A stretch of DNA of 64,000 nt from Streptomyces sp. NBC_01264 (GTDB lineage: Bacteria; Actinomycetota; Actinomycetes; Streptomycetales; Streptomycetaceae). The notes beneath the pieces were generated by a model. It saw only the letters and a list, made by a program, of their open reading frames with translations. It searched no databases and had not been told where the DNA came from. Positions 10,572 through 48,147 of this stretch are shown one piece after another (the stretch's first letter is position 1; every line of letters starts with the position of its first letter). The stretch is from assembly GCF_026340675.1 (NCBI RefSeq), contig NZ_JAPEOX010000002.1, positions 2,108,001 through 2,172,000 on the forward strand. The letters run 5' to 3'. The translations under genes and the position numbers were made by a program.

Positions 10572-10651
10572 GGGGTGCGGGGGTTCCGGGGAGGAGCCCC
10601 CGCACCAGGGTGCCGCCGCCCCGTGCCGCCGCCACACCGGTCCGCCCCCGC

Positions 10652-11536
10652 TCAGCCCGCGAGGCCGTGGCGTGCGGCCCAGGCCGTGACGGCGGCGGCG
10701 ATCTCCCCGGGCCGGTCCTCCGGGCAGAGGTGGGCGGCGGCGCCGCAGTACTCGGTCTCCAGCGCGGAGATGTTCTCCTCGCTCCACGCCACCAGCTCGG
10801 GGCCGACCATCAGGGCGGGCGAGCCGTCGAAGTGGAGCAGGAGCTTGGGCACCTGGGGGCTGGCGGCCAGCCAGGCGTCGTACGCCTCGACCCGGGCGAC
10901 CACGTCCGCCGGTTCGCCGCCGATCGGCAGGGAGCGGGCGAACCGGAGCAGGGGGACCCGGCTCCCGGGGGTGGGGTAGGGGGCGGCGTAGACGGTGTGG
11001 TCCGCCTCGCTCAGCGGGTTCAGCACCGTCTTGCCGATGCTGTCCTCGATGAAGAGGTTCCGCTCCAGGATCATCTCCTCCCCCACCCCCGGGGTACGGA
11101 TCGCCTCGAACCGGACGCGGGCGGCGGGCGGGTACTCCTCCCAGGTCATCGGCCGCAGGATCGTCTCCATGAAGGCGAGCCCGCGGACCGTCCCCGGGTG
11201 CCGGGCGGCCCGGTCGAAGGCGAGCGCGCCGCCCCAGTCCTGGCCCACGAGGACGGCCTCCCCGATCCCCAAGGCCTCGAACCAGGCGTCGAGGTAGCGG
11301 ACGTGGTCGGCGAAGCGGTACTCCCCGCCGGGCTTGCCGGAGCGGCCCATCCCGATCAGGTCGGGGGCCAGGACACGGACCCCGCCCCCGATCCGGGGCA
11401 GTACGCCCCGCCACAGGTGGGAGGAGGTCGGGTTGCCGTGCAGGAAGACGAAGGGGACGCCGCCGTCGGGGGCACTGCCGGGGGCTCCGAGCTCCTCGTA
11501 GTACATGGTCGAGTCGAGTACGTCGATGACGGGCAT
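10652..11536 (-). CDS. Haloalkane dehalogenase (alpha/beta hydrolase)
   Basis: A 294-residue alpha/beta hydrolase. The nucleophile elbow is GQDWGG with D100; W101 next to it and N36 in HGNPTSS are the usual halide-binding pair, and the catalytic His is probably in AAHLCPED. These features and the length match the DhaA/LinB/DppA haloalkane dehalogenase group, which cleaves carbon-halogen bonds to alcohols. An epoxide-hydrolase relative is less likely because of the GQDWGG/HGNPTSS pairing. It is divergent from a MarR regulator across a 103-bp spacer that contains a perfect operator-like repeat. Confidence 0.85.
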   Translation of the reverse strand: MPVIDVLDSTMYYEELGAPGSAPDGGVPFVFLHGNPTSSHLWRGVLPRIGGGVRVLAPDLIGMGRSGKPGGEYRFADHVRYLDAWFEALGIGEAVLVGQDWGGALAFDRAARHPGTVRGLAFMETILRPMTWEEYPPAARVRFEAIRTPGVGEEMILERNLFIEDSIGKTVLNPLSEADHTVYAAPYPTPGSRVPLLRFARSLPIGGEPADVVARVEAYDAWLAASPQVPKLLLHFDGSPALMVGPELVAWSEENISALETEYCGAAAHLCPEDRPGEIAAAVTAWAARHGLAG

Positions 11537-16910: not shown

Positions 16911-17047
16911 ACGATCACCGGCGCCTCGCCGACGCCATCCGCTTGACGGTCATCCGCCGCCGAATCCAGCAACTCCGCCAGCACCACCAGATCCACGGAC
17001 GCCTACGACTTGGCGGCCCCAGCACCACCGAAAGGAAGGTCCGGTGA
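16907..17047 (+). CDS. Small Arg/Gln/His-rich protein
   Basis: Forty-six residues, rich in Arg, Gln and His (VIRRRIQQLRQHHQIHGRLR), starting at a GTG that overlaps the previous stop and ending in GTGA overlap with the DUF2637 gene. It may bind nucleic acid. No family is recognised. Confidence 0.45.
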   Translation: MNDHRRLADAIRLTVIRRRIQQLRQHHQIHGRLRLGGPSTTERKVR

Positions 17048-18306
17048 CGGTCCGTCCAGAAATGACGAGGGCCCAGCAGGTTCTCGTGGGCGTCGTCGCC
17101 GTCGGCGCCGTCGTCATCGCCGGTATCGGCTTCGCGGGCTCGTACGGGGCAGTCCGCGCACTCGCGGCGAAGAAGGGGTTCGGGACCTTCGCGCTGTTCT
17201 TCCCGATCGGGATCGACGCGGGGATCATCGTCCTCCTGGCGCTCGACTTGTTGCTGTCGTGGATCCGGATTCCGTTCCCGCTACTGCGCCAGACGGCGTG
17301 GTTGCTGACCGCGGCGACAATCGCGTTCAACGGGGCCGCGGCCTGGCCCGACCCGCTCGGTGTCGGCATGCATGCCGTGATCCCGCTCCTCTTCGTGGTC
17401 ACCGTGGAGGCCGCCCGGCACGGCGTCGGCCGGATCGCCGACATCACCGCCGACCGCGACATGGACGGGGTCCGCTTCACGCGGTGGCTGCTCTCCCCGG
17501 TCCCCACGTTCAAGCTGTGGCGCCGGATGAAGCTGTGGGAACTGCGCTCCTACGAACAGGCCGTCGACATGGAGCAGGACCGCCTGATCTATCAGGCCCG
17601 CCTCGCCGCGAAGTACGGCCGAGCTTGGCGCCACAAGGCGCCGGTGGGGGCGCTGCTCCCGCTCCGCCTGGCCAGGGTCGGTGTACCGCTCGCCGACACC
17701 GCACCCGCCGGCCTCGCCGCCGCGGGGATCTCGATTCAGTGGCGCCCGGTGGCAGTGGCCCCAGTCCCCGACTTTCCTGCGGAACTCCCCCCGGGGTTCG
17801 AGGAGCACGCGGTGGCCGCCCTGGAGGTCGCGGCCTGGCGGGTGCCGGTCCTGGCCGAGGACAAGGCCGGACGGGGCCGGGAGGAGGTCACCGCCCGCGT
17901 CTCGTACGAAGACCCCGAGAAGGAGGGCCTGGACGACTGCGAGGACACCGGACAGGCCGACACCGGACAGGCCGAAGAACCTGCGGGAGAACCTGCAACC
18001 GGGCCGGAAGGTCAGGGCCGAAGTGACGATGCCGACGAGTCGACATTGCAGCAGGTGGCTTCGGCCCCGTCCGGCTCCGTCGCTCCGCCCCGCCAGGACA
18101 CCCGCGTATCCACCGCGCTCACCTTCGGCAACGAGATGCGGGCCGCGTACGCGGAACACGAGAAGCGAGAACTGTCCGCGGCCTGGTCCCGGTCCCGCAC
18201 CGACGCCGAACCGCTCACCGCGGCCGACTTCGTGACCAAGCACAACACCACCACGCGGAAGCTGCGGGAGGCCCTGAAGGCGTTCCCGGCTCCGACCACC
18301 GCCTGA
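17044..18306 (+). CDS. DUF2637 membrane protein (Spd-like)
   Basis: A 420-residue protein starting at GTG 17044, with AAGGAAGG upstream. Residues ~10-135 hold four or five membrane helices with the DUF2637 hallmark (GFAGSYGAVRALA, FPIGIDAGI, WPDPLGVGMHAVIPLLFV). A cytoplasmic region (RRMKLWELRSYEQAVDMEQ) follows, then an acidic linker, then a C-terminal HTH-like end (TAADFVTKHNTTTRKLREAL). DUF2637 proteins are recurrent in Streptomyces plasmids and integrative elements and are often counted among spread (Spd) proteins; the role in intramycelial spreading is inferred. It leads a membrane-protein operon reaching to 20252. Confidence 0.8.
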   Translation: MTVRPEMTRAQQVLVGVVAVGAVVIAGIGFAGSYGAVRALAAKKGFGTFALFFPIGIDAGIIVLLALDLLLSWIRIPFPLLRQTAWLLTAATIAFNGAAAWPDPLGVGMHAVIPLLFVVTVEAARHGVGRIADITADRDMDGVRFTRWLLSPVPTFKLWRRMKLWELRSYEQAVDMEQDRLIYQARLAAKYGRAWRHKAPVGALLPLRLARVGVPLADTAPAGLAAAGISIQWRPVAVAPVPDFPAELPPGFEEHAVAALEVAAWRVPVLAEDKAGRGREEVTARVSYEDPEKEGLDDCEDTGQADTGQAEEPAGEPATGPEGQGRSDDADESTLQQVASAPSGSVAPPRQDTRVSTALTFGNEMRAAYAEHEKRELSAAWSRSRTDAEPLTAADFVTKHNTTTRKLREALKAFPAPTTA

Positions 18307-23374: not shown

Positions 23375-23638
23375 ATGCAGCTACGGTTCGTCGGGATAGA
23401 CCCCAGCACCGGCGATGACGAGAGCCCGATGGTGTGGGTGGACGACGAAGAGAAGGAGCTGGTGGTCCAGGGCTGGAAGCCCGGCGAGGCGCTGCTGACG
23501 AAGATCGGCAGCACCGAGTGGGTCCCCGGCCACGCCGTCGGCATCCCCGACCACGAGAACGTGACCCGTATCCCGCTCCGGATGGCGGGAATCATCAGGA
23601 AGGCGCTAGACGATGCAGAACGTGCCGGGCTTCTCTGA
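23375..23638 (+). CDS. Small protein paired with the DUF6879 gene
   Basis: An 87-residue protein starting at ATG 23375, with GGGGAGA upstream. It contains FVGIDPSTGDDESPMVWVDD and ends in a helical RKALDDAERAGLL. Small proteins of this kind regularly precede DUF6879/XRE-DUF5753 genes in Streptomyces. It overlaps the next gene by 26 nt, so the two are translationally coupled. Function is unknown; a regulatory partner is likely. Confidence 0.6.
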   Translation: MQLRFVGIDPSTGDDESPMVWVDDEEKELVVQGWKPGEALLTKIGSTEWVPGHAVGIPDHENVTRIPLRMAGIIRKALDDAERAGLL

Positions 23639-24134
23639 ACTGCTGGCCGGTGCTCAGCACTCCGCGGTACACCTGGAGATGCGCGACTCCTACGGGGTCG
23701 ACAAGGAGAAAGGCCCCTTCGCGGCGTGGCGGGACGGTGTCCGGCTCGACCCCGACGACCGTGCGACGTGGTGGCGGCCCTGGCTCGACCTCATCTCTCA
23801 AGCCGTCGCCCGGGGTGTGGTGATCCGTCGCGCGCGCATCGTCTCCGAACCGGTCACCGAGTACATCCGCTTCGAGCACTCGGGCACGTTCACCAACATC
23901 GCGGCAGGCGAACAGGTCCGCTGGCTGCCCCGCCGTCAAGCGTCGGACATCGCGCTCCCCGGAAACGACTTCTGGCTGTTCGACGGCAAGATCGTCCGCT
24001 TCAACCACTTCACCGGTGACGGTGCGTCCGCCGGGCCGGAGATGCGCGAAGAGCCCGCCGTGGCCAAGCTCTGCGCAGACGCGTTCGAGTCGGTGTGGGA
24101 GCGTGGCATCCCGCACGAGCAGTACACCGTCTGA
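23613..24134 (+). CDS. DUF6879-family protein
   Basis: A 173-residue protein with the family pattern FSELLAGAQHSAVHLEMRDS, WRPWLDLISQAVARGVVIRR and LPGNDFWLFDGKIVRFNHF. These proteins are almost always next to an XRE-DUF5753 regulator, as here (16 nt downstream). They are thought to work with it in signalling or development, but no biochemical role is established. Confidence 0.75.
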   Translation: MQNVPGFSELLAGAQHSAVHLEMRDSYGVDKEKGPFAAWRDGVRLDPDDRATWWRPWLDLISQAVARGVVIRRARIVSEPVTEYIRFEHSGTFTNIAAGEQVRWLPRRQASDIALPGNDFWLFDGKIVRFNHFTGDGASAGPEMREEPAVAKLCADAFESVWERGIPHEQYTV

Positions 24135-24150
24135 CCCACACAGCACACCG

Positions 24151-24999
24151 ATGTCCGCCTCCCCGTCCTCCAGCGCCCAGACGGCCCGTCTCGCGGTCGC
24201 CGCACGCCTGCGCGAAATCATGCTGGACGCCGGCCTCCAAGGGCAGGAGCTGGCGGCCTTGTGCGGGTGGAACGGCGCCAAGACCTCCCGCATCATCAAC
24301 GCCAAGACCGCGCCGTCCGACAAGGACATCCGGGCGTGGTGCACCGCGTGCGGCGCGGACGGCCAGGCCGAGGATCTGATCGCCGCAAGCCGCGCGGTCG
24401 ACTCCATGTACGTCGAGTGGCGCAGGCTCACCCGTACGGGCCTGCGCCGACTGCAAGAGTCCGCGGTCCCCCTCTACGAGCGCACCCGCCATTTCAGGGC
24501 TTACTCCTCCCGCGTCGTGCCGGGCGTCCTACAGACCGAGGCATACGCAACCGCCCTGCTCGCCACCGTCGCCGACTTCCGCCGCACGCCCGACGACGTC
24601 GCCGATGCCGTGACGGCCCGCCTGGCCCGCTCCCGCATCATCCGCACCGGGAACCACCGCTTCGCGATCCTGGTGGAGGAAGGGGTCCTGTACTACCGCC
24701 TCGGCAGCGCCGAGACGATGGCCGAGCAGCTGAGACACCTCCTCTCGGCCATGTCGCTACCCGCCGTCTCCCTCGGCGTCATCCCGTTCACCGCCGAGCG
24801 CAGCATGTGGCCGACCGAGACGTTCAACGTCTTCGATGACGTACAGGCAAACGTGGAACTCCTGTCTGCTCAGGTGACCGTCACCTCGCCCAGCGAACTC
24901 GCCCTGTACGTCCAGGCATTCGACAGGTTCAAGGATCTGGCGGTGCACGGAGCACGGGCACGGGCCCTGATCTCCAGGGCAATCGACTCCCTGAGCTGA
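24151..24999 (+). CDS. XRE-family regulator with DUF5753 domain
   Basis: A 282-residue protein with the standard two-part layout. The N-terminal HTH (LREIMLDAGLQGQELAALCG then SRIINAKTAPSDKDIRAW) is followed by the DUF5753 domain (LYERTRHFRAYSSRVVPGVL, YATALLATVADFRRTPDDV, VLYYRLGSAETMAEQLRHLL). Streptomyces genomes encode dozens of these DNA-binding regulators, often with small DUF397 or DUF6879 partners. It may control the genes up to the RiPP-like locus, which begins 0.9 kb downstream on the same strand. Confidence 0.85.
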   Translation: MSASPSSSAQTARLAVAARLREIMLDAGLQGQELAALCGWNGAKTSRIINAKTAPSDKDIRAWCTACGADGQAEDLIAASRAVDSMYVEWRRLTRTGLRRLQESAVPLYERTRHFRAYSSRVVPGVLQTEAYATALLATVADFRRTPDDVADAVTARLARSRIIRTGNHRFAILVEEGVLYYRLGSAETMAEQLRHLLSAMSLPAVSLGVIPFTAERSMWPTETFNVFDDVQANVELLSAQVTVTSPSELALYVQAFDRFKDLAVHGARARALISRAIDSLS

Positions 25000-25147
25000 A
25001 ATTCTGCAATCGCGTGCAAACGCGTTGTTGGCGCCTGGCGCCGCTCCCTACCGTGGTGTTCGCCCCCTTAGCAGCGGGCCGCACCGCCACCTCCCCCGTG
25101 TCGCGCCTGCGGCCCGCTGCGCCCTCCGCCGGAGAGGAGCACCAACG

Positions 25148-25321
25148 ATGACCACGCCCTCCCAGCCCCGCAGTAGCAGCAGCCGCACCCCAGAGCCAGA
25201 GCAGCCCGGCGCCCCCTCCCGAGCCCTGCGGATACGGGGCGCGTCCGGCTGGAAGCGGTTCAGGAAACGGGCCGACATGCAGCTCCCCGCCGGCCGAGGC
25301 GAGCAGGATCCCCCGCGGTGA
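25148..25321 (+). CDS. Small basic protein
   Basis: Fifty-seven residues from ATG 25148, with GAGGAG upstream. Ser/Pro/Arg-rich, ending in a basic segment (ASGWKRFRKRADMQLPAGRG). The stop overlaps the next GTG start. No family is recognised; it heads a coupled set of three small genes. Confidence 0.5.
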   Translation: MTTPSQPRSSSSRTPEPEQPGAPSRALRIRGASGWKRFRKRADMQLPAGRGEQDPPR

Positions 25322-25536
25322 GCCGTTCAAAGAGCAGGCGCCCCTCCTGGCTGTATGAGGGGGCCCGTGTCCTCGACGCGGACGACCGGGAAGCAATCGT
25401 CCAGTTCATCGGCGAGTTCGAGGACCCCGCCACCCGCCGTGTCATCCCCGAAGCCGTGTTCCTGAGGCCCGAGGGCGGGGGCCGGGAGTGGGTCGTGCCG
25501 GACCACCAGGCGCTGCGAGAGGCGGACGCCCGATGA
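25318..25536 (+). CDS. Small protein of unknown function
   Basis: Seventy-two residues with an SH3-like beta pattern (YEGARVLDADDREAIVQFIG; TRRVIPEAVFLRPEGGGREW). It starts in GTGA overlap and ends in ATGA overlap with the next gene. This domain type recurs in Streptomyces accessory regions but has no known function. Confidence 0.55.
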   Translation: MSRSKSRRPSWLYEGARVLDADDREAIVQFIGEFEDPATRRVIPEAVFLRPEGGGREWVVPDHQALREADAR

Positions 25537-25700
25537 CCGACCGCAGCCACTTACCCGAACCCGGCTGGGGCATGATCTGCGCCCTCCTCGCCATCGGCCT
25601 CGCTGGTCCCGCCGTCTCCCTCTCCGGGGACGTCCTCGACCTGGCCGAGCCGGTTGCAGCGCCCCCTCCGGCCACCGCGCCGGACGTACCGCCCTCGTAG
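25533..25700 (+). CDS. Small membrane peptide
   Basis: Fifty-five residues in ATGA overlap with the preceding gene. One hydrophobic helix (GMICALLAIGLAGPAVSLSG) is followed by an acidic, Pro/Ala-rich tail (EPVAAPPPATAPDVPPS). Its position just before the putative RiPP precursor makes a role in export or immunity possible but unproven. Confidence 0.5.
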   Translation: MTDRSHLPEPGWGMICALLAIGLAGPAVSLSGDVLDLAEPVAAPPPATAPDVPPS

Positions 25701-25765
25701 GCCGCCCACATACTCCCTGCCCGTCCATGTCTCGCAGGCGCACGGCACGGCCAGGGTGCACCACT

Positions 25766-25802
25766 CCCCGCCCGAACCTTCCCGGCAGTCGGCCGGGCGG
25801 GG
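25766..25802 (+). terminator. Hairpin between the small-gene operon and the RiPP precursor
   Basis: CCCCGCCCG (25766-25774) pairs with CGGGCGGGG (25794-25802). It separates the small-gene operon from the precursor gene, which suggests the precursor has its own promoter or is reached through a partial terminator. Confidence 0.55.
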
Positions 25803-25882
25803 CCCTGCACCACCAGCACCACCAGCATGACCCCGCACCGCACCGGTACGGGGCTGACATTTTCGTGAGAGGAATGATCCCC

Positions 25883-26041
25883 ATGTCCCATGACATTCAG
25901 GTCAACGACCTGACGCGGCGCCTCGACCACTCCGTCCCGGACGGCGACTTCGCCCCCGCGGCGGCCGTCGCATCCCTGACCCGGCGCCTCGACCACTCGG
26001 TGCCGGACGGCGACTTCGCCCCGGAGGGGACCGCGGTCTGA
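25883..26041 (+). CDS. Putative RiPP precursor peptide with two 16-residue core repeats
   Basis: A 52-residue peptide starting at ATG 25883, with GAGAGGA spaced nine nt upstream; an ATG at 25874 lies too close to that site. After a short start (MSHDIQVND) it contains LTRRLDHSVPDGDFAP at residues 10-25 and again, identically, at 32-47. The copies are 22 residues apart, joined by AAAVAS, with a short EGTAV tail. The repeated block plus neighbouring HExxH and 2OG-Fe(II) enzymes fit a ribosomally made, post-translationally modified peptide with multiple cores. Asp, His, Asn or Pro in each core are plausible hydroxylation sites. I recognise no known precursor family. Confidence 0.6.
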   Translation: MSHDIQVNDLTRRLDHSVPDGDFAPAAAVASLTRRLDHSVPDGDFAPEGTAV

Positions 26042-26142
26042 CCTCGGCCATGCACTGACTTCGCGGGGCGTCTCGGCTGCTCATACCGGGGCGCCCCGTA
26101 CCCGTCTCCGCCACCCGCATACCCGACCAAGGAGAGTTCACC

Positions 26143-27069
26143 GTGCAGACCACCATCGCCACCCGTGTAGCCTCCGGCTCCTTCTTCGATCTCGGCCGAA
26201 GGGACCCGGCACTGATCCGTCTGCGCGAGGACGACGCCGAACAGGCCCTCCCGTTCGCCCTGATGGAACGCCTCGTGAAGTCCGGCATCCCCTACGCCGA
26301 GCACGCCCGCTCCTTGCGCAGTGAGCGCGTGCACGTGGCCGGGACCGGCTTCGACTGGTTCGACGGCGCGTTGCCCGGACAGATCGCCGACGAGATCAAC
26401 CTGACGGACTACGAGATCACCGCGCACACCGACGAGCGCCGCGCAGCACTGACCCGGGCATTGGAGCGGCTGGCCGCGGCCCACCCCGACGCCTTCGCCC
26501 GCGTGCAGGAGTTCGTCCGGGGCCTGCTGTGGGTGGGCCTCAAGCCCGGCATCCGCAACTCGTCGCTGACCAGCTCCAGTGACCCGGCGCTCCCGTACGT
26601 CATCGTGTTCTCCGAGAAGGCACAGCACCACATCCCGCCGAATACCGTCAGCGCCGAGCCGTCCCACTTCTTTCTCGCGGAGAACATCCTCCACGAGGGC
26701 ATCCACCAGTCGGTCAGCTTCCACGTCCTCCAGCACCAGGTCTTCGCCGACGGGTACTCCTCGAAGACCTCCCCCAAGATCGAGATCGCGTGGCGCGCTA
26801 CTCAGGGGGTCGCCCGAAACCAGTTCTGGGAGGTGGACCGGGCCTTCCACGCGACGTGCGTGTACAACCAACTGCTGCGGTTCCGCCGGACCGAACTCGA
26901 CCGCGACGACCTGACCGCGGGCGAGCGAAAGGGTTTCCAAGCCGCCTACGACGAGGGCATGCCGGCCGTCCGCTACCTCATGGACCAGCTCGAACTCCTG
27001 GAAGAGCACTTCACCGTGCACGGCCGGGAGCTGCTGGCCGACCTGCGCCACCAGACCGACCAGCTCTAG
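26143..27069 (+). CDS. HExxH-type peptide-modifying enzyme (putative peptide beta-hydroxylase)
   Basis: A 308-residue protein starting at GTG 26143, with AAGGAGAG upstream. The metal motif HEGIH is at residues 184-188 in NILHEGIHQSVSFHVLQHQV, and a conserved-looking H236 in VDRAFHATCVYNQLLRF is a likely third ligand. This arrangement fits the HEXXH peptide-modification family associated with RiPP clusters, members of which have been named alpha-ketoglutarate-dependent HExxH peptide beta-hydroxylases. It is not a secreted protease: no signal peptide or propeptide is present. It lies between the repeat peptide and a 2OG-Fe(II) oxygenase on the same strand. Confidence 0.7.
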   Translation: MQTTIATRVASGSFFDLGRRDPALIRLREDDAEQALPFALMERLVKSGIPYAEHARSLRSERVHVAGTGFDWFDGALPGQIADEINLTDYEITAHTDERRAALTRALERLAAAHPDAFARVQEFVRGLLWVGLKPGIRNSSLTSSSDPALPYVIVFSEKAQHHIPPNTVSAEPSHFFLAENILHEGIHQSVSFHVLQHQVFADGYSSKTSPKIEIAWRATQGVARNQFWEVDRAFHATCVYNQLLRFRRTELDRDDLTAGERKGFQAAYDEGMPAVRYLMDQLELLEEHFTVHGRELLADLRHQTDQL

Positions 27070-27091
27070 CCACCGGACAAGGGAGAGGCGA

Positions 27092-28303
27092 GTGCTCCAG
27101 CACCTCATCACACAAGATGACGACCTGCGCATGGTCCCCACCGACTACGACCAGCTGACCGCCGCTGTGGAGAAGCTCCGCGAGGAGCTCCGGACGCTGC
27201 CCGAGGAGACGGACGCCGATCGGGCCCGGCTTTTGTCCCGGTGGACCGGAATCGGCCTGCTGAGCCTGGGCCACCACGGCGACGCGCGCACGTTCCTGCG
27301 GCAGGCCCTCGACCTGGCCATCGCCAACGGCAACTCCCGGGCCGTCATCGCCACCGAACTCAACCTCGCCGACGCGTACCGCTACGCCGGTGGGGCAGAG
27401 ACCGCGGGCGCGCTCTACCACAAGGCCCTGGACGCCGCCCAAGACCAGCACCCCGAACTCGTCGACTTCGCACTCCAGCACCTCGGCAAGCACTTCCTGG
27501 AACAAGGCGGCCTCGACCAGGCGCGCACCCACCTACGGGAAGCGCTGCGGCTGCGGACCGCCAAGGGCGACGCCGGGCTGATCGAATCGACTCAGGCCGC
27601 GCTCGACCGCGTCGAACTGCTGATCAGTGAGACGACACAGTGGAGCAAGGGGTGGACGGCGTGGCTCCAGTCCCACGCCACGGCCCGGACGCCAGCCCGG
27701 TGGGAGGAAGAGTTCCCGGCCCTCCGGGAAGCCGTACACGGTCTCACCACGCACCAGCGGGTGCGGCCCCGCCACCTGCGCGATCAGCCGTTCCCCGCCG
27801 AGCTGCTCGCCGCCATGGCGGAGGAGGCTGAGAAGGCCCTGTCCGGTGGCGGGTACCTGCACAACGGCAAGTGGAACGCGGCCGTCAGCGAGGCAGCGGG
27901 CCGGTTCGCGGGGCAAGTAGATCTCGCCGCTGTCGTAGCGCAGTCCACCGGCCTGGAAGTCGAGCAGCCACACACCGGCGTCTACGTCGCCTACCTGGAG
28001 GAGGGGCAGTTCCTCGACTTCCACGTTGACGAGTTCGGCTTCGGCGAGGCCAACCTGATTGTGTGCCTCCAACACGAGCGCCCCACCGCGGGAGGCGTGA
28101 GCTGTACCGTTTTCATCAACGCCGACGGCTACCTGAAATGCGACCTCGCACCGGGAGAGGGAGTCGTATTCGACGGAGCACTCACACCACACGGCCGGAC
28201 GCCCCTCGGTCCCGGAGAACGCGTCATCCTCGTCAGCTTCGGCTTTCGCGCACGCGATCAGGCCCCGCGTAAGGTCAACCGGCTGCCAACGGTCCCCAGC
28301 TGA
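27092..28303 (+). CDS. TPR protein with C-terminal 2OG-Fe(II) oxygenase domain
   Basis: A 403-residue protein starting at GTG 27092, with GGGAGAGG upstream, 22 nt after the HExxH gene. Residues ~45-180 are tetratricopeptide-like helices (GDARTFLRQALDLAIANGNS; GGAETAGALYHKALDAAQDQ). The C-terminal ~180 residues form a double-stranded beta-helix oxygenase with H311-x-D313 (FHVDEFGFGEANL), distal H367 and the 2OG-binding R377 (HGRTPLGPGERVILV). The TPR part probably binds the peptide substrate or partner enzyme. Together with the HExxH protein it could install two distinct oxidations on the repeat peptide. Confidence 0.75.
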   Translation: MLQHLITQDDDLRMVPTDYDQLTAAVEKLREELRTLPEETDADRARLLSRWTGIGLLSLGHHGDARTFLRQALDLAIANGNSRAVIATELNLADAYRYAGGAETAGALYHKALDAAQDQHPELVDFALQHLGKHFLEQGGLDQARTHLREALRLRTAKGDAGLIESTQAALDRVELLISETTQWSKGWTAWLQSHATARTPARWEEEFPALREAVHGLTTHQRVRPRHLRDQPFPAELLAAMAEEAEKALSGGGYLHNGKWNAAVSEAAGRFAGQVDLAAVVAQSTGLEVEQPHTGVYVAYLEEGQFLDFHVDEFGFGEANLIVCLQHERPTAGGVSCTVFINADGYLKCDLAPGEGVVFDGALTPHGRTPLGPGERVILVSFGFRARDQAPRKVNRLPTVPS

Positions 28304-28364
28304 CGGAGCCCGCCCGTCACCCCTCAGACTCCCTGCCCATCCGAGTCTCGCTAAGGACCCGCGC

Positions 28365-29052
28365 ATGCCGATCAGCCCCGACCACACCCGCACCTTCGGC
28401 CGCGTCGCCGTCACCCTGCCCGGTCTTGACGAGCCCGGCCTGTACCTCTCCGCCGTCGACACCCTCGACAGCCCGCGCGGCATCGTCCAAGACTTCACGT
28501 TCGGGGACGCGGACCTGCGCGCCCTCGACCTCGCGGACGCCCGGCTCGCCACCGGCCGCATCACGGGCCTGCGGTCCAAGCGGACCGAGTTCGAGGCCCT
28601 GAACCTGCACGGCGTGGAGATCACGAACTGCGACCTTGGGGCGGTCCGCTGGACGGAGAGCAAGCTCACCCGCGTACACCTGCGGGACTGCAAAATGATG
28701 GGCGCAGCCTTTGACGGCCTGGTCCTCGACGACGTCTTGTTCGAGGGCTGCAAATTCGACCTCGCCACCTTCGAGAAGGTCCGCGTCACCGGGCCCGTTG
28801 CGTTCATCGGCTGTGTCCTGACCGAGGCCACGTTCACCGACTGCGACCTGTCCGACGCGGTGTTCACGGACTGCAAGCTCCGGCTGACCGAGTTCGGCGC
28901 CGGCCGCTACCGCGGCACAGACTTCCGCGAAAACGACCTCCGCGATCCGCGGCATCGCTAACCTCGCCAAAGTTCGCATCGACCACGGCCAGCAGGCCGA
29001 CCTCGCCGAGGCCCTCGTGAATGAACTCGGCATGACCCTCGGCGACGACTGA
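28365..29052 (+). pseudogene. Pentapeptide-repeat protein with a late frameshift
   Basis: AAGGA precedes the ATG. Residues 45-195 contain a right-handed pentapeptide beta-helix (A(D/N)LXX type: DADLRALDLADARLATGRIT; CDLSDAVFTDCKLRLTEFGA). The frame stops at 28961 after DLRDPRHR, but another frame continues without a break to a TGA at 29052, encoding IRGIANLAKVRIDHGQQADL and NELGMTLGDD, the usual end of this family. Loss of one CG dinucleotide in the CGCG run near 28941 would explain the shift (DLRAIRGI restored). The truncated 198-residue product may still fold. Some pentapeptide proteins protect DNA gyrase, so an immunity role next to the RiPP genes is conceivable. Confidence 0.7.
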
Positions 29053-35755: not shown

Positions 35756-36871
35756 TCACTCGGGGCCACTGGCTCGCTGGGCCGGGACCTTGGCCATGGC
35801 GTTCCCGCTCCACTCGTCGCGGGGGCGGATATAGCCGTCGGCGACCTTCGAGTTCGGCGACCAGCGACCCTGTTTGCGGATGGCCGCGGCGGAAGCGCCG
35901 TTCTCGTCGGCGATGGTTGCGCCGGAGGCGCGCAGGCCGTGGGCGGTGAGCTTGTTGCCCTCCTCGTCAAAGTCGACGCCGGCCGCGGCGGCGAGCCTCT
36001 GCACGATGTCGTTGACGGACTCCGCGGTGAGTGCGTCACCGATGTTCCCCCAGCGGTCGATACGGCGGAGGATCGCCCCGCTGGTGATGCCTCGCACGGC
36101 CAAGGCATCGCGGTACTCGACGTAGGCCGTGACGGGGTCCAGCGCATCATCCCGGGCGGGCATGGGCACCCATTCACCTTCGGCGGCCTGGTCGGTCTTG
36201 GACGCGGCGAAGTACAGCCGCAGACCCTTGCCGGGGACCACCATGGCGTCCGCGAGGACGCGGGCGGAGAGTTCGCTGCGGCGGGTCATGGCCCAGGTGG
36301 ACCAGACGACGACCAGGCGGTTCCGAAGGCCCGTCAGGGTGCTCGTGTCGCACTCCTGGACCATGGCCACGAAGCCCTTCAAGTCGACGGTCGCCGACTT
36401 CTTCACACGGCGGCCGGCCTGCGCCTGGCCGCGCTTGTGCGCCTTGATGAGCGCGCGGGCGGGCTTCGGGTTGGGGTGGAGTTCTTCGGGGATTTCCGCC
36501 CAGGAGTGCAGGGCGAGGACCGCGGCGACGGCCTGACCGAGCGCGGAAGCGCCGTAGGGATTTCCGGTGCGCTCCGAGATCGAGGCCGAGAGGACGCGGG
36601 TCCACTCGGTGAGCGTCTGGGTGGTCATCGGCACGAGGGTCCGGCCCTCCGCCGAGCACCAGCCGGCGGCCCGTTGGTGCCACGCGGTGTATTTCCGGTA
36701 GGTCTCGGCGGGGATGGCAACCTTGAGAGCTTCGACCGTTTCAGGGCTTACCTGATAGTCCGCTGCGGTTCGGGCGAGAAAGTGTGGATAGATCGATTGC
36801 TGGATTTGATCACTCTGAGCGACGGGGAGTAGCTCCGCGTCGATAATCTCCAGCTCGCCCATTTGTCCCAT
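35756..36871 (-). CDS. Second tyrosine recombinase (phage-integrase type)
   Basis: A 371-residue protein starting at ATG 36871 (36862 also possible, with GGGACAA before it). An N-terminal SAM-like/core-binding helical domain (WHQRAAGWCSAEGRTLVPMT) precedes a catalytic domain with the first Arg in MTRRSELS, the H-x-x-R box in AHGLRASGATIA, and the nucleophile in VADGYIRPRD. All catalytic residues appear present, so it is probably active. It differs strongly from the integrase at 49647. It could resolve dimers, drive another recombination event or mark a second inserted unit. Confidence 0.8.
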   Translation of the reverse strand: MGQMGELEIIDAELLPVAQSDQIQQSIYPHFLARTAADYQVSPETVEALKVAIPAETYRKYTAWHQRAAGWCSAEGRTLVPMTTQTLTEWTRVLSASISERTGNPYGASALGQAVAAVLALHSWAEIPEELHPNPKPARALIKAHKRGQAQAGRRVKKSATVDLKGFVAMVQECDTSTLTGLRNRLVVVWSTWAMTRRSELSARVLADAMVVPGKGLRLYFAASKTDQAAEGEWVPMPARDDALDPVTAYVEYRDALAVRGITSGAILRRIDRWGNIGDALTAESVNDIVQRLAAAAGVDFDEEGNKLTAHGLRASGATIADENGASAAAIRKQGRWSPNSKVADGYIRPRDEWSGNAMAKVPAQRASGPE

Positions 36872-37019
36872 TCTGTCGTTCCCGGTAAGCACGGTTACCA
36901 GGACTGAGCCGTACCTTACTAAGGAAGTTGGCGACCCGTCAGCCCATCTCGGACCTTGGGCAACCGGATCGCCAACTCCCACATTTGCGGAACCGGCTCC
37001 CGCCCCATACCAGGCGCGG

Positions 37020-37559: not shown

Positions 37560-40500
37560 TCACACCCTGGGCGCCACCACCTCCGCCACGCTCGCGCCGA
37601 GCATCGTCACCAGGGCTGTGGATGCCGCCAGGCTCATCAAATCTCGCCGCAGCCTCACGGGGACCCCCGTCCTGATGGGGACCGGCCCCACCTCCGGCCC
37701 GGCAACCTCCGCGCGCTCCAGCCTGATCTCCGCCATGACCTCTTCGAAGGTCCGCACAGACGGGGCCGCGGCGCCCAACGCCTCCCGCTCCGCGTCCAGC
37801 AGGACCCACAGTTCGTCCAGTTCGGCGGACACCTCAGCCCACGTCAGGCTCGGGGCGTCCTGGTCCACCTGCTGCTCCTGGTGCTCCTCGACGTCGGCGA
37901 CGACGGCCGCCGCGCGGTTCGCGGCAGAGATCGCGGCGTAGTCGATGACGTCGTCTTCCTCCTCGACGGCCGGGGCGGGGGCGATGACGGGGGCGAACCA
38001 GTCGCGCGGCTCGGTGCCCTCCAGCCACAGCTCCTCGGGCGCGGCCCAGCTCCCCGACCCGCGCGAGTCGTCATCCCATAGCACCAGGCAGCCCTTTCCG
38101 GTACGGCTGGTGAGGATGTGCCCCGACCGCTGGTCCAGGGACACGCGGCTGCCCGACTCCCAGTACGCCCGGCCGGTGTCCGGCTGGGCGCTGCGGTACG
38201 GCGTAGCGAAGGTGCGGGCCGGAGCCTGGTAGGGGGTCGCGATCGGCAGCGACGTCCCCACCGTCAGCTCGGCGCGGGCCGTGGCGGCCTCGATGGCGGG
38301 CGGCTCCACGAGGGAGACGAACCCCGCCCCGCGGTCGAGGCTGACGGCGATGCCGCACGCGTCCAGCCGAGTCACGGTCACCTCAGACGGCCGGGACTCC
38401 CCTGCCGCGTTGCGCCATGCCAACGCCCGCTGCTGCCGGGTGAGGGGTGCGAGGCCCCGTACGGACGCCTGCGGCCACTCCTCCTCATCCTCGAACTCGG
38501 GGTCGGCGGTGGCTTCCAAGGGCTTCCAGTCAGCCCCGACGTGCCTTTCGAGCAGGGCCGCCATGTGGCCCGGCGTCGCCTTCGGCTGGGCGTCCAGCTC
38601 GGCGCGCAGACGCTCGGACACGGTGGCCTTCTTCTGGCGCGCGGGGTCGGCGGCTGCCGGTGCTGCGGGCTCGCGGTCCCAACGCACCGCCACCCGCTTA
38701 AGGGTGTCTGAGACGACCTCCCAGGGCCCGGCGGTGGTGTAGTCGTTGCGCGAGGCCACCCCCAGGGCGGAGGCAATGGAGGCGTCCCGGATACCGAGGG
38801 GCTTGCGCTGTGTGCCCTGGCTCATGGACGGCCCAGAGCGGCCGAAGTTGCCCAGCTTTTCGCCCGTGCAGGCGCACGTCAGGTAGCTGCGCAGGGTCCG
38901 CGCGACGCCCTCGGCCTCGACGCACAGCCACACGTACCGGTGACCGCCCTTGCGGCAGGCGTCGGCGTCCTCGCCCTGGCGCTCCTCGGCGTGGAGTACG
39001 GGGGCGTACAGGCCCGGCGTCGGCTGCGCCTTGACCGGGATTTCGGCCGTGTCGGCAAGCGCAGAGTCCTGGCCCGACTCGCCGGCCGGACCCTCGCAGA
39101 TTTCCTTCCCGATTTCTGCCGTGTCGGCGTAGGCCTCGGGGTACGTCTCGTGCAGGAACCTCTCCAGGTGCGGCAGCCACTCGATGCCAAGCGCCATCGC
39201 CAGCAGCGCCGCGGCGACGACCGGCGCCACGACATCCCCCACTTGCTGGCAGACGCTCGTCCTACTGCCCACGACGGGCCACGACTCCGGCACCGTGATG
39301 AGCCGCATGATCTGAGCGAGGGTGAACCGCCCGCCCTTCTCCCCCACGTCCACGCTGCGGATGCGGGACGTGAAGGCCGTGTACGGGCGCTCGTCGCTGA
39401 TGGTGACGATGTTCCCGCCGCCGGACCGCTTGCCCACTCCCCGGGTGTAGACCGGCGTCCCCTCCGGCAGGCCGGTAGCCGTCGCGGCGCCCGTCCGCAG
39501 CCCCGGCGCCTCCATGGTCACCTCGGTCACGCTGTCCCGCCGCGCCACCATGAGCGCCCGCACCCGCTGGGTCGGCGAGCCGAAGTCGGCCGCGTCCCGC
39601 ACCATCCACTCAGCCATAGCCCAGCCCATGAGCTGGAAATCCGCGGCAGCCTCTCCCCTGATCTGCTCCGGCAGTTTGCTGCTCTGCTCGACGGCCACCC
39701 ACTCCAGTGGCGCCCCCGCGGCCTGCAACCCGAGACCCCATATCGCGAGTTCGAGCATGAGGTGGCCCGTGCTGCCGGTGTAGTCGTCCATGTCCGCCCG
39801 GACGTCGCCCCACGACATGCCGTTCGGCTCCTTGTAGGACAGCTCCACCCCGAAGTCCGGGGCGACGTCGTGCCCGTCACCGAAGGGGATCGCCCCCGCT
39901 GCGCGACGTGCGGAGTCCCATGCATCGCTCAGGATGTCGATGTTGTCGGCCAGTCTCCCGGCCCGCTTGCCGCTGTCTGTGTAGTCCGTGCACGGCGGGG
40001 TCACGATCAGCCCGCGCACCTGCCTGAACACCGGGTCGGACGGGTCCAGCGTGGTCACGTCCGCCTGTATCGCGAAGAACCCGGCCGCCCGCAGCGTCTT
40101 CACACAGTCGGGGTCGTTGTCGATGTTGATGACCTCGACGTCACGACCCAACTTCTGCCGCAGCACCTCACACAGCCCCATGACCATGCCGCCCGGACCC
40201 GAGAACAGGTTCAACACGAGCAGCGGCGCACCATCCGGGCGCGGCTCCATGAACTGGGCCAGCTCGGGGAACCGCTTCACGGCATCGCTCTCGACCGCCC
40301 GCAGCGGCGACGGCTCCGGCTCGGCGAAGGGGTCGTAGGCGTCCTCCTCGCACTCCCCCGCCTGCTCCTCGGCAGCCTCACGTTTCAGGGCCAGCCGCAG
40401 CGGACGGGGCAGGGTCGACGGCGCGGCCTCCACCGGCTCCTCCACCTGGTGCTCCTCGACGGCCTCGCCGCGGGCCACAGCGTCGGCCAGGATGGCGCGC

Positions 40501-42971
40501 TTGACCGCGGGCAGGTTCGGGAACGAGTCCCCGCCGGTCCGGCAGATGTTCTTGGGGTCCTCGCCTTCGAAGACCAGCCGGGCCCCGTCCGAGTGCTCGT
40601 GCTGCGCCGAGAACGTCCCTGCCAACTTCCGCAGCACGTAGGTGTGCCCGATGATCTTGGCGACGCACGGGAACGTGTTCTTGGCGCTAAACACGATGTC
40701 GCCGACCTTGGCCGCCGTCGCCTTGCGCTTCGGCGCCATGCTGCCGCGTCCCACCGTGCTCTCCCCCATGCTCGTGCTGCTGCTCTTCTGCGCCGACTTC
40801 GCGGCCTTCCCCTCCTGCTTCGCCCGGACCGCTTCGGCCTCGGCGTACAGGGCCGCCACGACGTCGGGGCGGGGGTTGTGCTCCCCCGCGTCCAGGGCGG
40901 CCGTCACCATCTCGGCCACGAGGTCGCAGTACCGCTCTTCCCAGTCCAGCCGCGTCCCCATGGCCCCGTTCGTCTTCCCGCACAGCTCGTACGCCGTCTC
41001 CCACGGGTTTCCGATGTGTCCCTGTGCCTCCGCCAGCGGCCGGGCGAGGTGCAGCGCACACACGCCAACCGTGCCCATGACCGAGCCGTCCGCGGCCACG
41101 ATGTCCGCCACGAACCGCGCGGGCGCGTTCTTGTTCCAGCACGCCCCGATACAGAGCCCAGCCTCATCCCACGCCCCCGGGCCGCACTCCATCGCCGTCT
41201 TCCCGTGCACCCCGTACTTCTCCCGCACGCCGTCGGTGCCGGTGATGACCCAGCGGTCGAGCGGGATATCCCTCAGCCCGGCAACGGTCAGCTTGTGCAC
41301 GGCTCGCTTACGGAACATGCCGTCCACCGCGCCGCTCGTACCGGCCTCGCCGAACCAGCCGTTCGGCCGGTGCTCCCAGCCCCATCGGGTCTTGATCGCG
41401 ACACCAACGCGCCCGTACCGCTCGAACCGCCAGACGTCCGCCTCCAGCTCGGTCTCCACCAGCCCCGCCGACCACGCCACGCGCTCCACGTTCATGTGGC
41501 CGTACCGGGCCACCACACCGGCCGCCCACGTCCGCGACGCCGAGTCGGCACGGCACCACGCGAGCGCCGCCGTCAGGCTGTTGTCCTCGCTGATCTCAGC
41601 CCACCAGAACGAGCTTTCTGCCGCGGCTCCGCGGCCCACGCACCACTCCCCCGCGGTCCGCTTGTAGGACGGCGACCAAAGCCGGTAGCCGTGCCCGGAC
41701 TCGGTCGTGAACGACCAGTCGAACCCGTCGTTCTCCTCCTGGTGGTGCTCCCCCTCGTACGGCTCGACGCGCTCACCGGCCGTCAGCTCCTCCGGGAACT
41801 GGAGCGCCCACGCGGCCAATTCCTCCATGCGCTCGATGTCGAACCGGGCATGCCGCAAGTGGTGGTTGGCGCGCATGTAGGCGTGGTCCTCGGACATGCC
41901 GGGCGACGTCTGGACCCACCCGCAAACGCAGGAGATCCGATGCCCATCCGCCAGCGCGACGACCGACGTCGTGTGGATCAGCTCGCGCTCCGGCTGCTGC
42001 TCCTCGACGTCCGCCACGTCATCCCCCATGCTGATCTGATCGGCGCACTCATGGCGCACAGTGTTTTCGGACTGACCCGAGAGACGCTCACGGCCGGACG
42101 CAACAGCGTCCGCGTCGACAACCGGCCCGCCCATATCGGCGCGCACTGCGGCCATGTCCTCGCGGCACACACAGTCGAATCCGCCGTCGCACCTGTTGCA
42201 GGCGACTTCGTGCGTGACCTCTCCGGCCCACGCCTTGAGAATGTCCGCGGGAGTCTTGTCCTGCTTCGGAGCCTTGCGCGGCTTGAGCTTGACCTGACCC
42301 TTTCCAAAGGGCTTCCACTCCGGCGCACCCTTGTCGCGCTTGGCTACGGCCTTTTCGAAAGCCGCTACCTTTTTGGCGCGCTCCTCCAAGAGGACGTCCG
42401 ACGTGCAGTCATCGGGCAGGCGGAAGAGATTGAACGACAGACCGCCGTCCTCGGACGTGAACGCTTCGCGTACGTCGGTCGACTCGAACGGCACTCGGCG
42501 CGGCTGGTGACCCTGCTCCTCCGCCACCGCCTTTTCCGCCGCGCGCTGCAAGCCGTTCCACTGATCGGCAGTCTTTTCCGGCACCGGCGCGGTCGGAGCG
42601 GTCGGAGCGGCAGGCTTCTCCACCTCGACCGATGCAGGCTCGGGCACGCCAACCGGCACCGGAACGGGGCGACCGTCCAGAGCGCAACGACCAGCCTCGG
42701 TCACGCGGACAATGCTGGCCCGGAACGGGCGGGAAAGAATTCCCTCCCTGATCAACCGGTCGACGGAATCCTTACGAACGGCTCCCCTACGTTCGCCCTT
42801 GATTTTGGTAATTCGCACATCGACCTCACGCGAATATGCGCGTACGAGATCCGAATTGGTGTCGGGCATGTACGACTCGTACGAGACGCGCAACAGTCCC
42901 CATGCAGCTCTCTGCACAATCGCCCGTTGGGTCGATGTCAGGGCATAAGTGTGCCCTGCGGGTGTGGCCAT
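37560..42971 (-). CDS. 1803-residue polyvalent protein with C5-cytosine DNA methyltransferase core
   Basis: A very long multidomain protein. The N-terminus has a winged-helix-like segment (RDSVDRLIREGILSRPFRA-type, residues ~10-95). Middle regions contain Cys/His-rich modules (HRISCVCGWVQTSPG; CNRCDGGFDCVC). At residues ~915-1260 there is a C5 methyltransferase: motif I NLFSGPGG (F923), motif IV VTPPC with catalytic C994, and a motif X-like QVGDVVAPVVA near 1246. The motif VI equivalent reads VEQSS instead of ENV, with Glu retained. The C-terminal 550 residues add beta-rich modules. Acidic EEHQ/VEE linkers separate the parts. Typical C5 enzymes are ~350-450 residues. Such polyvalent proteins of mobile elements are thought to protect incoming DNA. 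Confidence 0.75.
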   Translation of the reverse strand: MATPAGHTYALTSTQRAIVQRAAWGLLRVSYESYMPDTNSDLVRAYSREVDVRITKIKGERRGAVRKDSVDRLIREGILSRPFRASIVRVTEAGRCALDGRPVPVPVGVPEPASVEVEKPAAPTAPTAPVPEKTADQWNGLQRAAEKAVAEEQGHQPRRVPFESTDVREAFTSEDGGLSFNLFRLPDDCTSDVLLEERAKKVAAFEKAVAKRDKGAPEWKPFGKGQVKLKPRKAPKQDKTPADILKAWAGEVTHEVACNRCDGGFDCVCREDMAAVRADMGGPVVDADAVASGRERLSGQSENTVRHECADQISMGDDVADVEEQQPERELIHTTSVVALADGHRISCVCGWVQTSPGMSEDHAYMRANHHLRHARFDIERMEELAAWALQFPEELTAGERVEPYEGEHHQEENDGFDWSFTTESGHGYRLWSPSYKRTAGEWCVGRGAAAESSFWWAEISEDNSLTAALAWCRADSASRTWAAGVVARYGHMNVERVAWSAGLVETELEADVWRFERYGRVGVAIKTRWGWEHRPNGWFGEAGTSGAVDGMFRKRAVHKLTVAGLRDIPLDRWVITGTDGVREKYGVHGKTAMECGPGAWDEAGLCIGACWNKNAPARFVADIVAADGSVMGTVGVCALHLARPLAEAQGHIGNPWETAYELCGKTNGAMGTRLDWEERYCDLVAEMVTAALDAGEHNPRPDVVAALYAEAEAVRAKQEGKAAKSAQKSSSTSMGESTVGRGSMAPKRKATAAKVGDIVFSAKNTFPCVAKIIGHTYVLRKLAGTFSAQHEHSDGARLVFEGEDPKNICRTGGDSFPNLPAVKRAILADAVARGEAVEEHQVEEPVEAAPSTLPRPLRLALKREAAEEQAGECEEDAYDPFAEPEPSPLRAVESDAVKRFPELAQFMEPRPDGAPLLVLNLFSGPGGMVMGLCEVLRQKLGRDVEVINIDNDPDCVKTLRAAGFFAIQADVTTLDPSDPVFRQVRGLIVTPPCTDYTDSGKRAGRLADNIDILSDAWDSARRAAGAIPFGDGHDVAPDFGVELSYKEPNGMSWGDVRADMDDYTGSTGHLMLELAIWGLGLQAAGAPLEWVAVEQSSKLPEQIRGEAAADFQLMGWAMAEWMVRDAADFGSPTQRVRALMVARRDSVTEVTMEAPGLRTGAATATGLPEGTPVYTRGVGKRSGGGNIVTISDERPYTAFTSRIRSVDVGEKGGRFTLAQIMRLITVPESWPVVGSRTSVCQQVGDVVAPVVAAALLAMALGIEWLPHLERFLHETYPEAYADTAEIGKEICEGPAGESGQDSALADTAEIPVKAQPTPGLYAPVLHAEERQGEDADACRKGGHRYVWLCVEAEGVARTLRSYLTCACTGEKLGNFGRSGPSMSQGTQRKPLGIRDASIASALGVASRNDYTTAGPWEVVSDTLKRVAVRWDREPAAPAAADPARQKKATVSERLRAELDAQPKATPGHMAALLERHVGADWKPLEATADPEFEDEEEWPQASVRGLAPLTRQQRALAWRNAAGESRPSEVTVTRLDACGIAVSLDRGAGFVSLVEPPAIEAATARAELTVGTSLPIATPYQAPARTFATPYRSAQPDTGRAYWESGSRVSLDQRSGHILTSRTGKGCLVLWDDDSRGSGSWAAPEELWLEGTEPRDWFAPVIAPAPAVEEEDDVIDYAAISAANRAAAVVADVEEHQEQQVDQDAPSLTWAEVSAELDELWVLLDAEREALGAAAPSVRTFEEVMAEIRLERAEVAGPEVGPVPIRTGVPVRLRRDLMSLAASTALVTMLGASVAEVVAPRV

Positions 42972-47458: not shown

Positions 47459-48147
47459 CACGACAGCTCTCCCAGGACGTGGCACAGCCGCGGGATCGCG
47501 GTCTTGCGGTTGAGCGTGCCGGGGACCCGGAGCATCCGGGCGAGGTCGCCGACTTCGCTGCCGTAGTGCCAGCCGAGCGATTCCGCGGCGCGGTGCAGGA
47601 TCTGCTGCCATGACTCGGACAGGGCCGCGAACTCCGCGAAGACTTCGGGCTGGTCGGCAATGACGAGTCGCCCGTCGAGGCGCCAGTACGGGTACAGGCC
47701 CCCGCCGGAATGGACCCAGACCGTGGGGTCCGGGAGGCCGGCCTGCGCGACGACCTTGCGGGCTGAGTCCTCATCCGGCGGGAGGGGGAGCCCGGACGCG
47801 GTGGCCTTGTGACCTTCGGTGCCGAAGTCGAGATCCGCCCACAGCGCGACGGCCTCGGCGCTCTGGTCCTCGCCGCCCCGCTGTTCGTGGGGCAGGTGGC
47901 TGCGCACGGTCAGTACGCGGTGGTAGATGCTGTGCTGGCCCATGCGGTTGAGCTGGTCGACAAAGGCGGCGGCGGCTTCCACCTCCGTGAACTCCCGGCC
48001 GCCCTTGTGGTCGGGGAACCCGCAGATCTGGATTCCCCCCTTGGTTCCGGCGTAGTACCAGGTGAGCCACTCGCGGACGGCGGCCGGGTCGTATTCAGCC
48101 GCACTGAGCGCTTGCTTAGGGATGTCGGTTTTGGGGTACGATGTCAT
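47458..48147 (-). CDS. Archaeo-eukaryotic primase/prim-pol domain protein
   Basis: A 229-residue protein. The AEP catalytic signature appears as WADLDFG (the D-x-D-like metal site) and VHSGGGLYPYWRL (the S-G-G-G-x-H/Y motif), preceded by a DQLNRMGQHSIYHRVLTVRS segment typical of RepB-like plasmid primases. It is probably the initiator primase of the element and is translationally coupled to the ATPase gene. The two together form a prim-pol replication module like those of many AICEs. Confidence 0.75.
   Translation of the reverse strand: MTSYPKTDIPKQALSAAEYDPAAVREWLTWYYAGTKGGIQICGFPDHKGGREFTEVEAAAAFVDQLNRMGQHSIYHRVLTVRSHLPHEQRGGEDQSAEAVALWADLDFGTEGHKATASGLPLPPDEDSARKVVAQAGLPDPTVWVHSGGGLYPYWRLDGRLVIADQPEVFAEFAALSESWQQILHRAAESLGWHYGSEVGDLARMLRVPGTLNRKTAIPRLCHVLGELS

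Follow-up and report, generated by a model that had tools for sequence, protein, structure and literature searches.

A conserved repeat peptide gene and two probable oxygenase genes form a putative peptide-modification cassette in Streptomyces sp. NBC_01264

The 64,000-nucleotide stretch of the Streptomyces sp. NBC_01264 genome analysed here (contig NZ_JAPEOX010000002.1, positions 2,108,001 to 2,172,000 of the forward strand; referred to below as the window) contains a gene for a short peptide with an internal repeat, followed by genes for a protein with an HExxH motif and for a protein that joins tetratricopeptide repeats (TPRs) to a probable 2-oxoglutarate (2OG)-Fe(II) oxygenase domain. The best explanation of these three genes, to which a probability of about 0.7 is assigned, is that they constitute a cassette for peptide modification resembling those of ribosomally synthesized and post-translationally modified peptides (RiPPs). 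An initial annotation had proposed such a system, extended by a pentapeptide-repeat gene, between 25883 and 29052; the forward strand does carry these four genes, and the end given lies 91 nt past the pentapeptide gene. The elements of the cassette are as follows.

25883 to 26041, forward strand: precursor peptide gene, 52 amino acids, with two LTRRLDHSVPDGDFAP units (open reading frame and sequence)
25910 to 25957, forward strand: first copy of the 16-residue block, with the core motif LTRRLDHSVPD
25976 to 26023, forward strand: second copy of the 16-residue block
26063 to 26099, forward strand: GC-rich hairpin between the precursor and HExxH genes (fold, and covariation in 19 sequences)
26143 to 27069, forward strand: HExxH enzyme, probable alpha-ketoglutarate/Fe(II) peptide hydroxylase, 308 amino acids (weak TIGR04267 match, structure match, alignments)
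27092 to 28303, forward strand: protein with a TPR domain and a probable 2OG-Fe(II) oxygenase domain, 403 amino acids (Pfam TPR_12, weak 2OG-FeII_Oxy_3, PADLOC 2OG, invariant H311, D313 and H367)

The association of the peptide with the two enzymes was assessed by comparing the window genes, using tblastn, with 30 fetched loci (some of them overlapping, e.g. L060 and L002) and with later additions. Both enzyme genes were found in 22 Streptomycetaceae loci (20 genomes, including that of the window, and 2 plasmids), and in 21 of these, window included, the peptide lies directly upstream of the enzymes, a recurrence which makes the repeated block more than a product of chance. Among 394 Streptomycetaceae genomes an HExxH relative is present in 27, the peptide in 20 and both in 19, a co-occurrence whose Fisher p of 4e-25 is overstated through the relatedness of the genomes. 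The genome with the peptide alone (G358) has a weak match (E 7e-4), while the eight with an HExxH relative and no window-like peptide comprise three with partial copies (G027, G111, G143), three with distant relatives (G042, G156, G229), one with a single-copy precursor (G070) and one, G189, which is the source of locus L036, in which none was found. The pattern used to recognize a RiPP cluster, a short conserved precursor linked to a modifying enzyme, is thus present in 21/22 loci and in 19 of the 20 precursor-bearing genomes, and the proposed grouping of the repeat peptide with both enzymes holds as a conserved unit.

No other open reading frame family of at least 60 amino acids is common to all 22 loci within about 7 kb (L045 and L046 are shorter). 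The HExxH gene is the sole match to itself in its own genome and is rare across the phylum, with matches at E up to 1e-5 in only 2 of the 396 genomes searched. The cassette copies in L051, L052, L053, L055 and L056 are broken or partial, the HExxH gene of plasmids L103 and L104 is annotated at 178 codons only, and the TPR-2OG frame is interrupted in L035 and L041 (tblastn pieces in different frames, and a stop), through error or decay. That several genomes and two plasmids carry copies which are incomplete, broken or shortened suggests that the cassette is frequently lost, and marks it as an accessory unit which is often damaged.

The two 16-residue blocks of the precursor, noticed at the outset, are indeed identical; they start at residues 10 and 32, a spacing of 22 residues or 66 nt. 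Their 48-nt coding stretches differ by 4 synonymous changes and 0 others, and the 59-nt DNA copies of the repeat are 88% identical. Over 21 loci, the differences between copies within precursor genes amount to 0.215 per synonymous site and 0.064 per other site (60.3 synonymous and 46.7 other differences), which gives a between-copy pN/pS of 0.30. A purine-rich stretch, AGAGGA, stands upstream of the precursor ATG; no Rfam element was found in 25000 to 26300 around the precursor start, and because hairpins upstream of the precursor are inconsistent across loci, no RNA element is claimed there.

The wider precursor family was collected with a profile built from 22 precursors, against which 7980 candidates were scored; 152 of these match with an E value of up to 10, and the best 120 are detailed here. 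The motif is present in all 120, partly by construction, because the search profile contains it. When a motif copy is taken to be any stretch of 10 residues that shares 5 or more positions with LTRRLDHSVP (thresholds of 5, 6 and 7 agree), 88 of the 120 listed precursors have two, 31 have one and 1 has three; the earlier description of the precursor as multi-core therefore suits most of those listed and fails for the 31 single-copy members, which show that repetition of the motif is not essential. Copy number also varies within the TPR-2OG type, since the precursor of that type at plasmid locus L072 has a single copy. Across the 210 copies in these 120 precursors, Thr is invariant, Asp is conserved in 209, His and Pro in 208 each, and Leu-1 and Leu-5 in 206 each, and in an alignment of 26 diverse precursors conservation is confined to the motif. 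Seven single-copy precursors, all metagenome predictions with E values of 0.002 to 0.017, have at most 5 residues beyond the motif Pro. For 61 of 119 precursors the longest contig is as long as that of an independently found HExxH match, as against 0 to 2 when the lengths are shifted. The open-licence literature, where absence is weak evidence, yielded a single paper containing letters of the motif, to judge by its title an unrelated one, and none linking HExxH, Kitasatospora and RiPP.

The hairpin between the precursor and the HExxH gene was aligned in 19 of the 22 loci (L036, L042 and L072 were left out). All 19 share a stem of about 14 bp, with 97.4% of cells paired, and changes on both sides of the stem occur in 5 pairs and 18 cells, compared with 2.4 and 4.1 in shuffles, of which 0/500 reach the observed level, and with at most 4 double-changed cells in slid controls. 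Single-sequence z values from simple shuffles range from -1.6 (the window and some others) to -5.3 among the 19 loci. The hairpin is probably an attenuator or an RNA-stability element which allows more peptide than enzyme to be made.

In the HExxH protein the motif reads HEGIH (residues 184-188), and the downstream His of the earlier description corresponds to His236, whose conservation among 61 aligned sequences is at least 90%. The two best matches of the predicted structure, far ahead of all others, are 8s5f, the HExxH domain of ChlB, and 22ob (SjiH), so that the model combines an HExxH motif with the fold seen in that domain of ChlB. Matches to TIGR04267 at E up to 0.1 occur in 60 of the 61 aligned HExxH relatives, the best at 1.6e-9.

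The third protein matches TPR_12 at E 6.9e-9 and the PADLOC model named 2OG at E 9.7e-5. The combination of TPRs with an H-x-D...H...R site that had been read from its letters is borne out by an alignment of 21 sequences (window included) in which H311, D313, H367 and R369 are invariant, the first three making up the metal triad and R369 being one possible 2OG-binding Arg.

Distant relatives of the HExxH protein occur in Streptacidiphilus (locus L054), Paenibacillus (L004), Brevibacillus (L079), other Bacilli and metagenomes; L004 and L054 are 33% and 29% identical to the window protein and 28% identical to each other. The gene is found in 1 of 104 genomes of the Paenibacillus family (that of L004) and in 4 of 398 genomes of the class which includes Paenibacillus, that of L004 among them, with one other partial. 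In L004 and L079 the gene order is precursor, HExxH, major facilitator superfamily (MFS) transporter, accessory protein and PGA_cap (CapA-type) protein, while L080 has a precursor and an HExxH gene without the other three. At L054 a 2OG protein 44% identical to the window oxygenase domain is accompanied by a single-copy precursor, an accessory protein, an HExxH protein, a second 2OG-like protein (with the same metal triad conserved in 12 sequences), an M13 peptidase, a TPR protein, an aldo/keto reductase and an MFS protein, the last encoded about 4.5 kb from the HExxH gene. A stem of different sequence occupies the place equivalent to that of the hairpin in L004, L079 and L080 (z -3.5, -6.2 and -4.0). 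The recurrence of the same core beside the same first enzyme in these Bacillus relatives points to an undescribed family of peptide natural products.

L054 10002-10466, L004 9890-10465 and L079 3037-3423: accessory protein, small, with LxxRLDELVP-like repeats
L004 10466-11767 and L079 1541-2839: PGA_cap (CapA-type) protein (Pfam)

The accessory protein of L054 is 54% identical to that of L004 over 120 residues and 50% identical to that of L079 over 117, has no Pfam match and, judged by its repeats, looks like a substrate mimic. Against 297 Streptomycetaceae genomes, the L054 protein matches only its own source genome; it is therefore absent from the window genome and is no general house-keeping protein of the family. 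In both Bacillota loci, L004 and L079, the PGA_cap gene follows that of the accessory protein. A short protein, P0252, has the precursor motif fused to a stretch resembling the accessory protein.

What chemistry such a cassette would perform, at which sites and in what order, and how its product might be released and exported, can be proposed as follows. The precursor, with one to three LT[RQ]RLDHxVP[DE] copies, would supply in each copy both a recognition element and a core. The divergent alpha-ketoglutarate-HExxH oxygenase would most likely beta-hydroxylate the nearly invariant Asp and/or His residues within the motif; these residues are the likeliest site because ChlB is reported to hydroxylate Asp and His, and its relatives Phe, Gln and Pro (PMC12636437; PMC13060819). 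Where the cassette is of the Streptomyces/Kitasatospora version, a second oxidation would be carried out by the TPR-2OG oxygenase, perhaps on an added GDFAP tail, a candidate site because the tail is found in most TPR-2OG-type precursors and not in those of L004, L079 and L080; the TPR domain may hold the precursor repeats. The hairpin after the precursor would allow more peptide than enzyme to be made, release might fall to host proteases or, in one relative, to the nearby M13 peptidase, and export might proceed through the MFS transporter in some relatives. The product may act as a signal, an antimicrobial or a metal ligand.

Several observations weigh against a two-oxygenase RiPP cassette and must be set beside this evidence. 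The HExxH protein scores 18.8 bits against TIGR04267, below the curated cut-off of 40, so that searches at that cut-off would miss it; a search of PDB sequences with one HExxH alignment profile found ChlH at E 0.089, and the match was lost with a profile from a larger alignment. The 2OG-FeII_Oxy_3 (PF13640) match of the TPR-2OG protein is weak, at 17.5 bits against a cut-off of 27, PF13640 matches at E up to 1 in 4 of 12 oxygenase-domain relatives, a PDB search with the oxygenase domain gave nothing credible, and the structure model is too poor for a fold search (predicted local distance difference test score, pLDDT, 59). The window hairpin taken alone is not striking, given its z of -1.6, and L054 is without the hairpin (z +1.0). 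The pairing of two oxygenases may not be general, as no 2OG gene was seen in L004, in L080 or on the 6-kb contig L079.

Two further such points, namely that L036 has both enzymes and no peptide that could be found, and that no protease or exporter is common to the 22 window-type loci, would also be expected if the motif were a docking element only, with the unmodified peptide serving as an adaptor, sensor partner or regulator and the enzymes acting on another cellular protein. The motif is moreover more strongly conserved than product cores usually are, and the accessory protein of L004, L079 and L054, which carries substrate-like repeats, is no short precursor. Against this, tandem copies of one unit fit a substrate better, the covarying hairpin is what an excess of substrate would need, and the MFS gene comes right after the HExxH gene in two relatives and nearby in a third; an exclusive docking role is accordingly judged unlikely. 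It is less probable still that the HExxH protein acts as a zinc protease to cut or mature the peptide, with the TPR protein as sole oxygenase. An HExxH motif would suit such a role, but the top two structure matches are the alpha-ketoglutarate-HExxH domain of ChlB and SjiH (known by its entry title alone), the best-conserved residues include TS, HxPP, WR and DR outside the motif, and the metzincin signature HExxHxxGxxH is absent, the window having HEGIHQSVSFH, without Gly at that place, and the Bacillota relatives HEAVHQAVNMN. The assignment of the protein to a peptide-modifying type thus agrees with its modelled fold, that of a peptide hydroxylase and not of a protease.

The remaining features of the window lie around the cassette.

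28365 to 28961, forward strand: pentapeptide-repeat protein, 198 amino acids (Pentapeptide_4, 6.7e-22), a neighbour probably outside the conserved unit
23613 to 24134, forward strand: DUF6879 protein (PF21806, 5.7e-59), optional upstream neighbour, in 6/22 loci including the window
24016 to 24999, forward strand: XRE-type helix-turn-helix and DUF5753 regulator (PF19054, PF13560), optional upstream neighbour, start codon uncertain
17044-18306: DUF2637 protein
35756-36982: phage-integrase match, below cut-off
37560-42971: 1803-amino acid protein with a C5-methylase piece
45035-47611: AAA_25/sigma-70 region 4 protein
49647-50924: phage-integrase match

The pentapeptide-repeat gene does follow the TPR-oxygenase gene on the same strand, 61 nt downstream, but its product, which gives only weak Qnr-type matches (37 bits against QnrAS, with a cut-off of 490), has no relative in the 30 other loci searched, most of which have the three-gene unit, so that the initial suggestion of an antimicrobial peptide whose producer is shielded through DNA mimicry at gyrase is very improbable. 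An anti-phage system was considered and rejected, as PADLOC gives the generic 2OG model alone and nothing for the HExxH or pentapeptide proteins. Copies of the XRE/DUF5753 regulator, 49-59% identical, lie upstream in L041, L043, L045, L046 and L048, and this protein and the DUF6879 protein possibly form a regulator pair. At L072 (plasmid NZ_CP108701.1) a gene annotated as a Shedu SduA-domain defence protein (10122-10721) follows the cassette. The integrase matches and the DUF2637 protein suggest that 13900-51000 of the window is probably an integrated element, and four plasmid records with relatives and one IMG/VR contig also favour the mobile setting first proposed; direct repeats marking its ends were not found (only 15-nt matches, probably chance), and the window contains no tRNA genes.

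The 52-residue peptide and its two enzymes offer a specific and inexpensive experimental handle, and alpha-ketoglutarate-HExxH enzymes are extended to a clade whose window member sits under the curated family cut-off. The constancy of the motif across two phyla suggests selection on the product itself rather than on a variable scaffold. It may even be speculated, tentatively, that the LT[RQ]RLDHxVP[DE] peptides of Actinomycetota and Bacillota belong to a single RiPP family whose near-invariant core is both recognition site and product, comparable to the precursor of a cofactor or metallophore; a metal-binding site would then arise from beta-hydroxy-Asp next to beta-hydroxy-His, with the substrate-mimicking accessory protein regulating or chaperoning the enzyme.

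Among known systems, SjiH (PDB 22ob) resembles the window HExxH model in structure and is known by entry title alone; the open-licence papers in which its letters occur seem to have no bearing on it. ChlB (PDB 8s5f) is a radical S-adenosylmethionine (SAM) enzyme fused to an alpha-ketoglutarate-HExxH domain, whereas the window enzyme is stand-alone and 13% identical to it over the aligned part; ChlB needs a cyclophane, its precursor is a different one, and no radical SAM domain occurs among the neighbours scanned. PflC/PosC and PesO (nitrilobacillin) are, like the window enzyme, stand-alone HExxH enzymes, which hydroxylate precursor Gln or Pro, but their clusters reportedly also use a multinuclear non-haem iron-dependent oxidative enzyme (MNIO) and their precursor motifs are poly-Gln/ARMD and R(V/T)DN (PMC12636437; PMC13060819). 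A parallel in enzyme pairing is biphenomycin, whose cluster differs in its precursor and second oxygenase and in that no MNIO or B12-radical SAM gene was found among the neighbours scanned here; since two different alpha-ketoglutarate oxygenases, the JmjC-type BipG and the HExxH-type BipH, are reported to act there on one RiPP precursor (PMC12707348), there is a precedent for RiPP clusters that employ oxygenases of two types.

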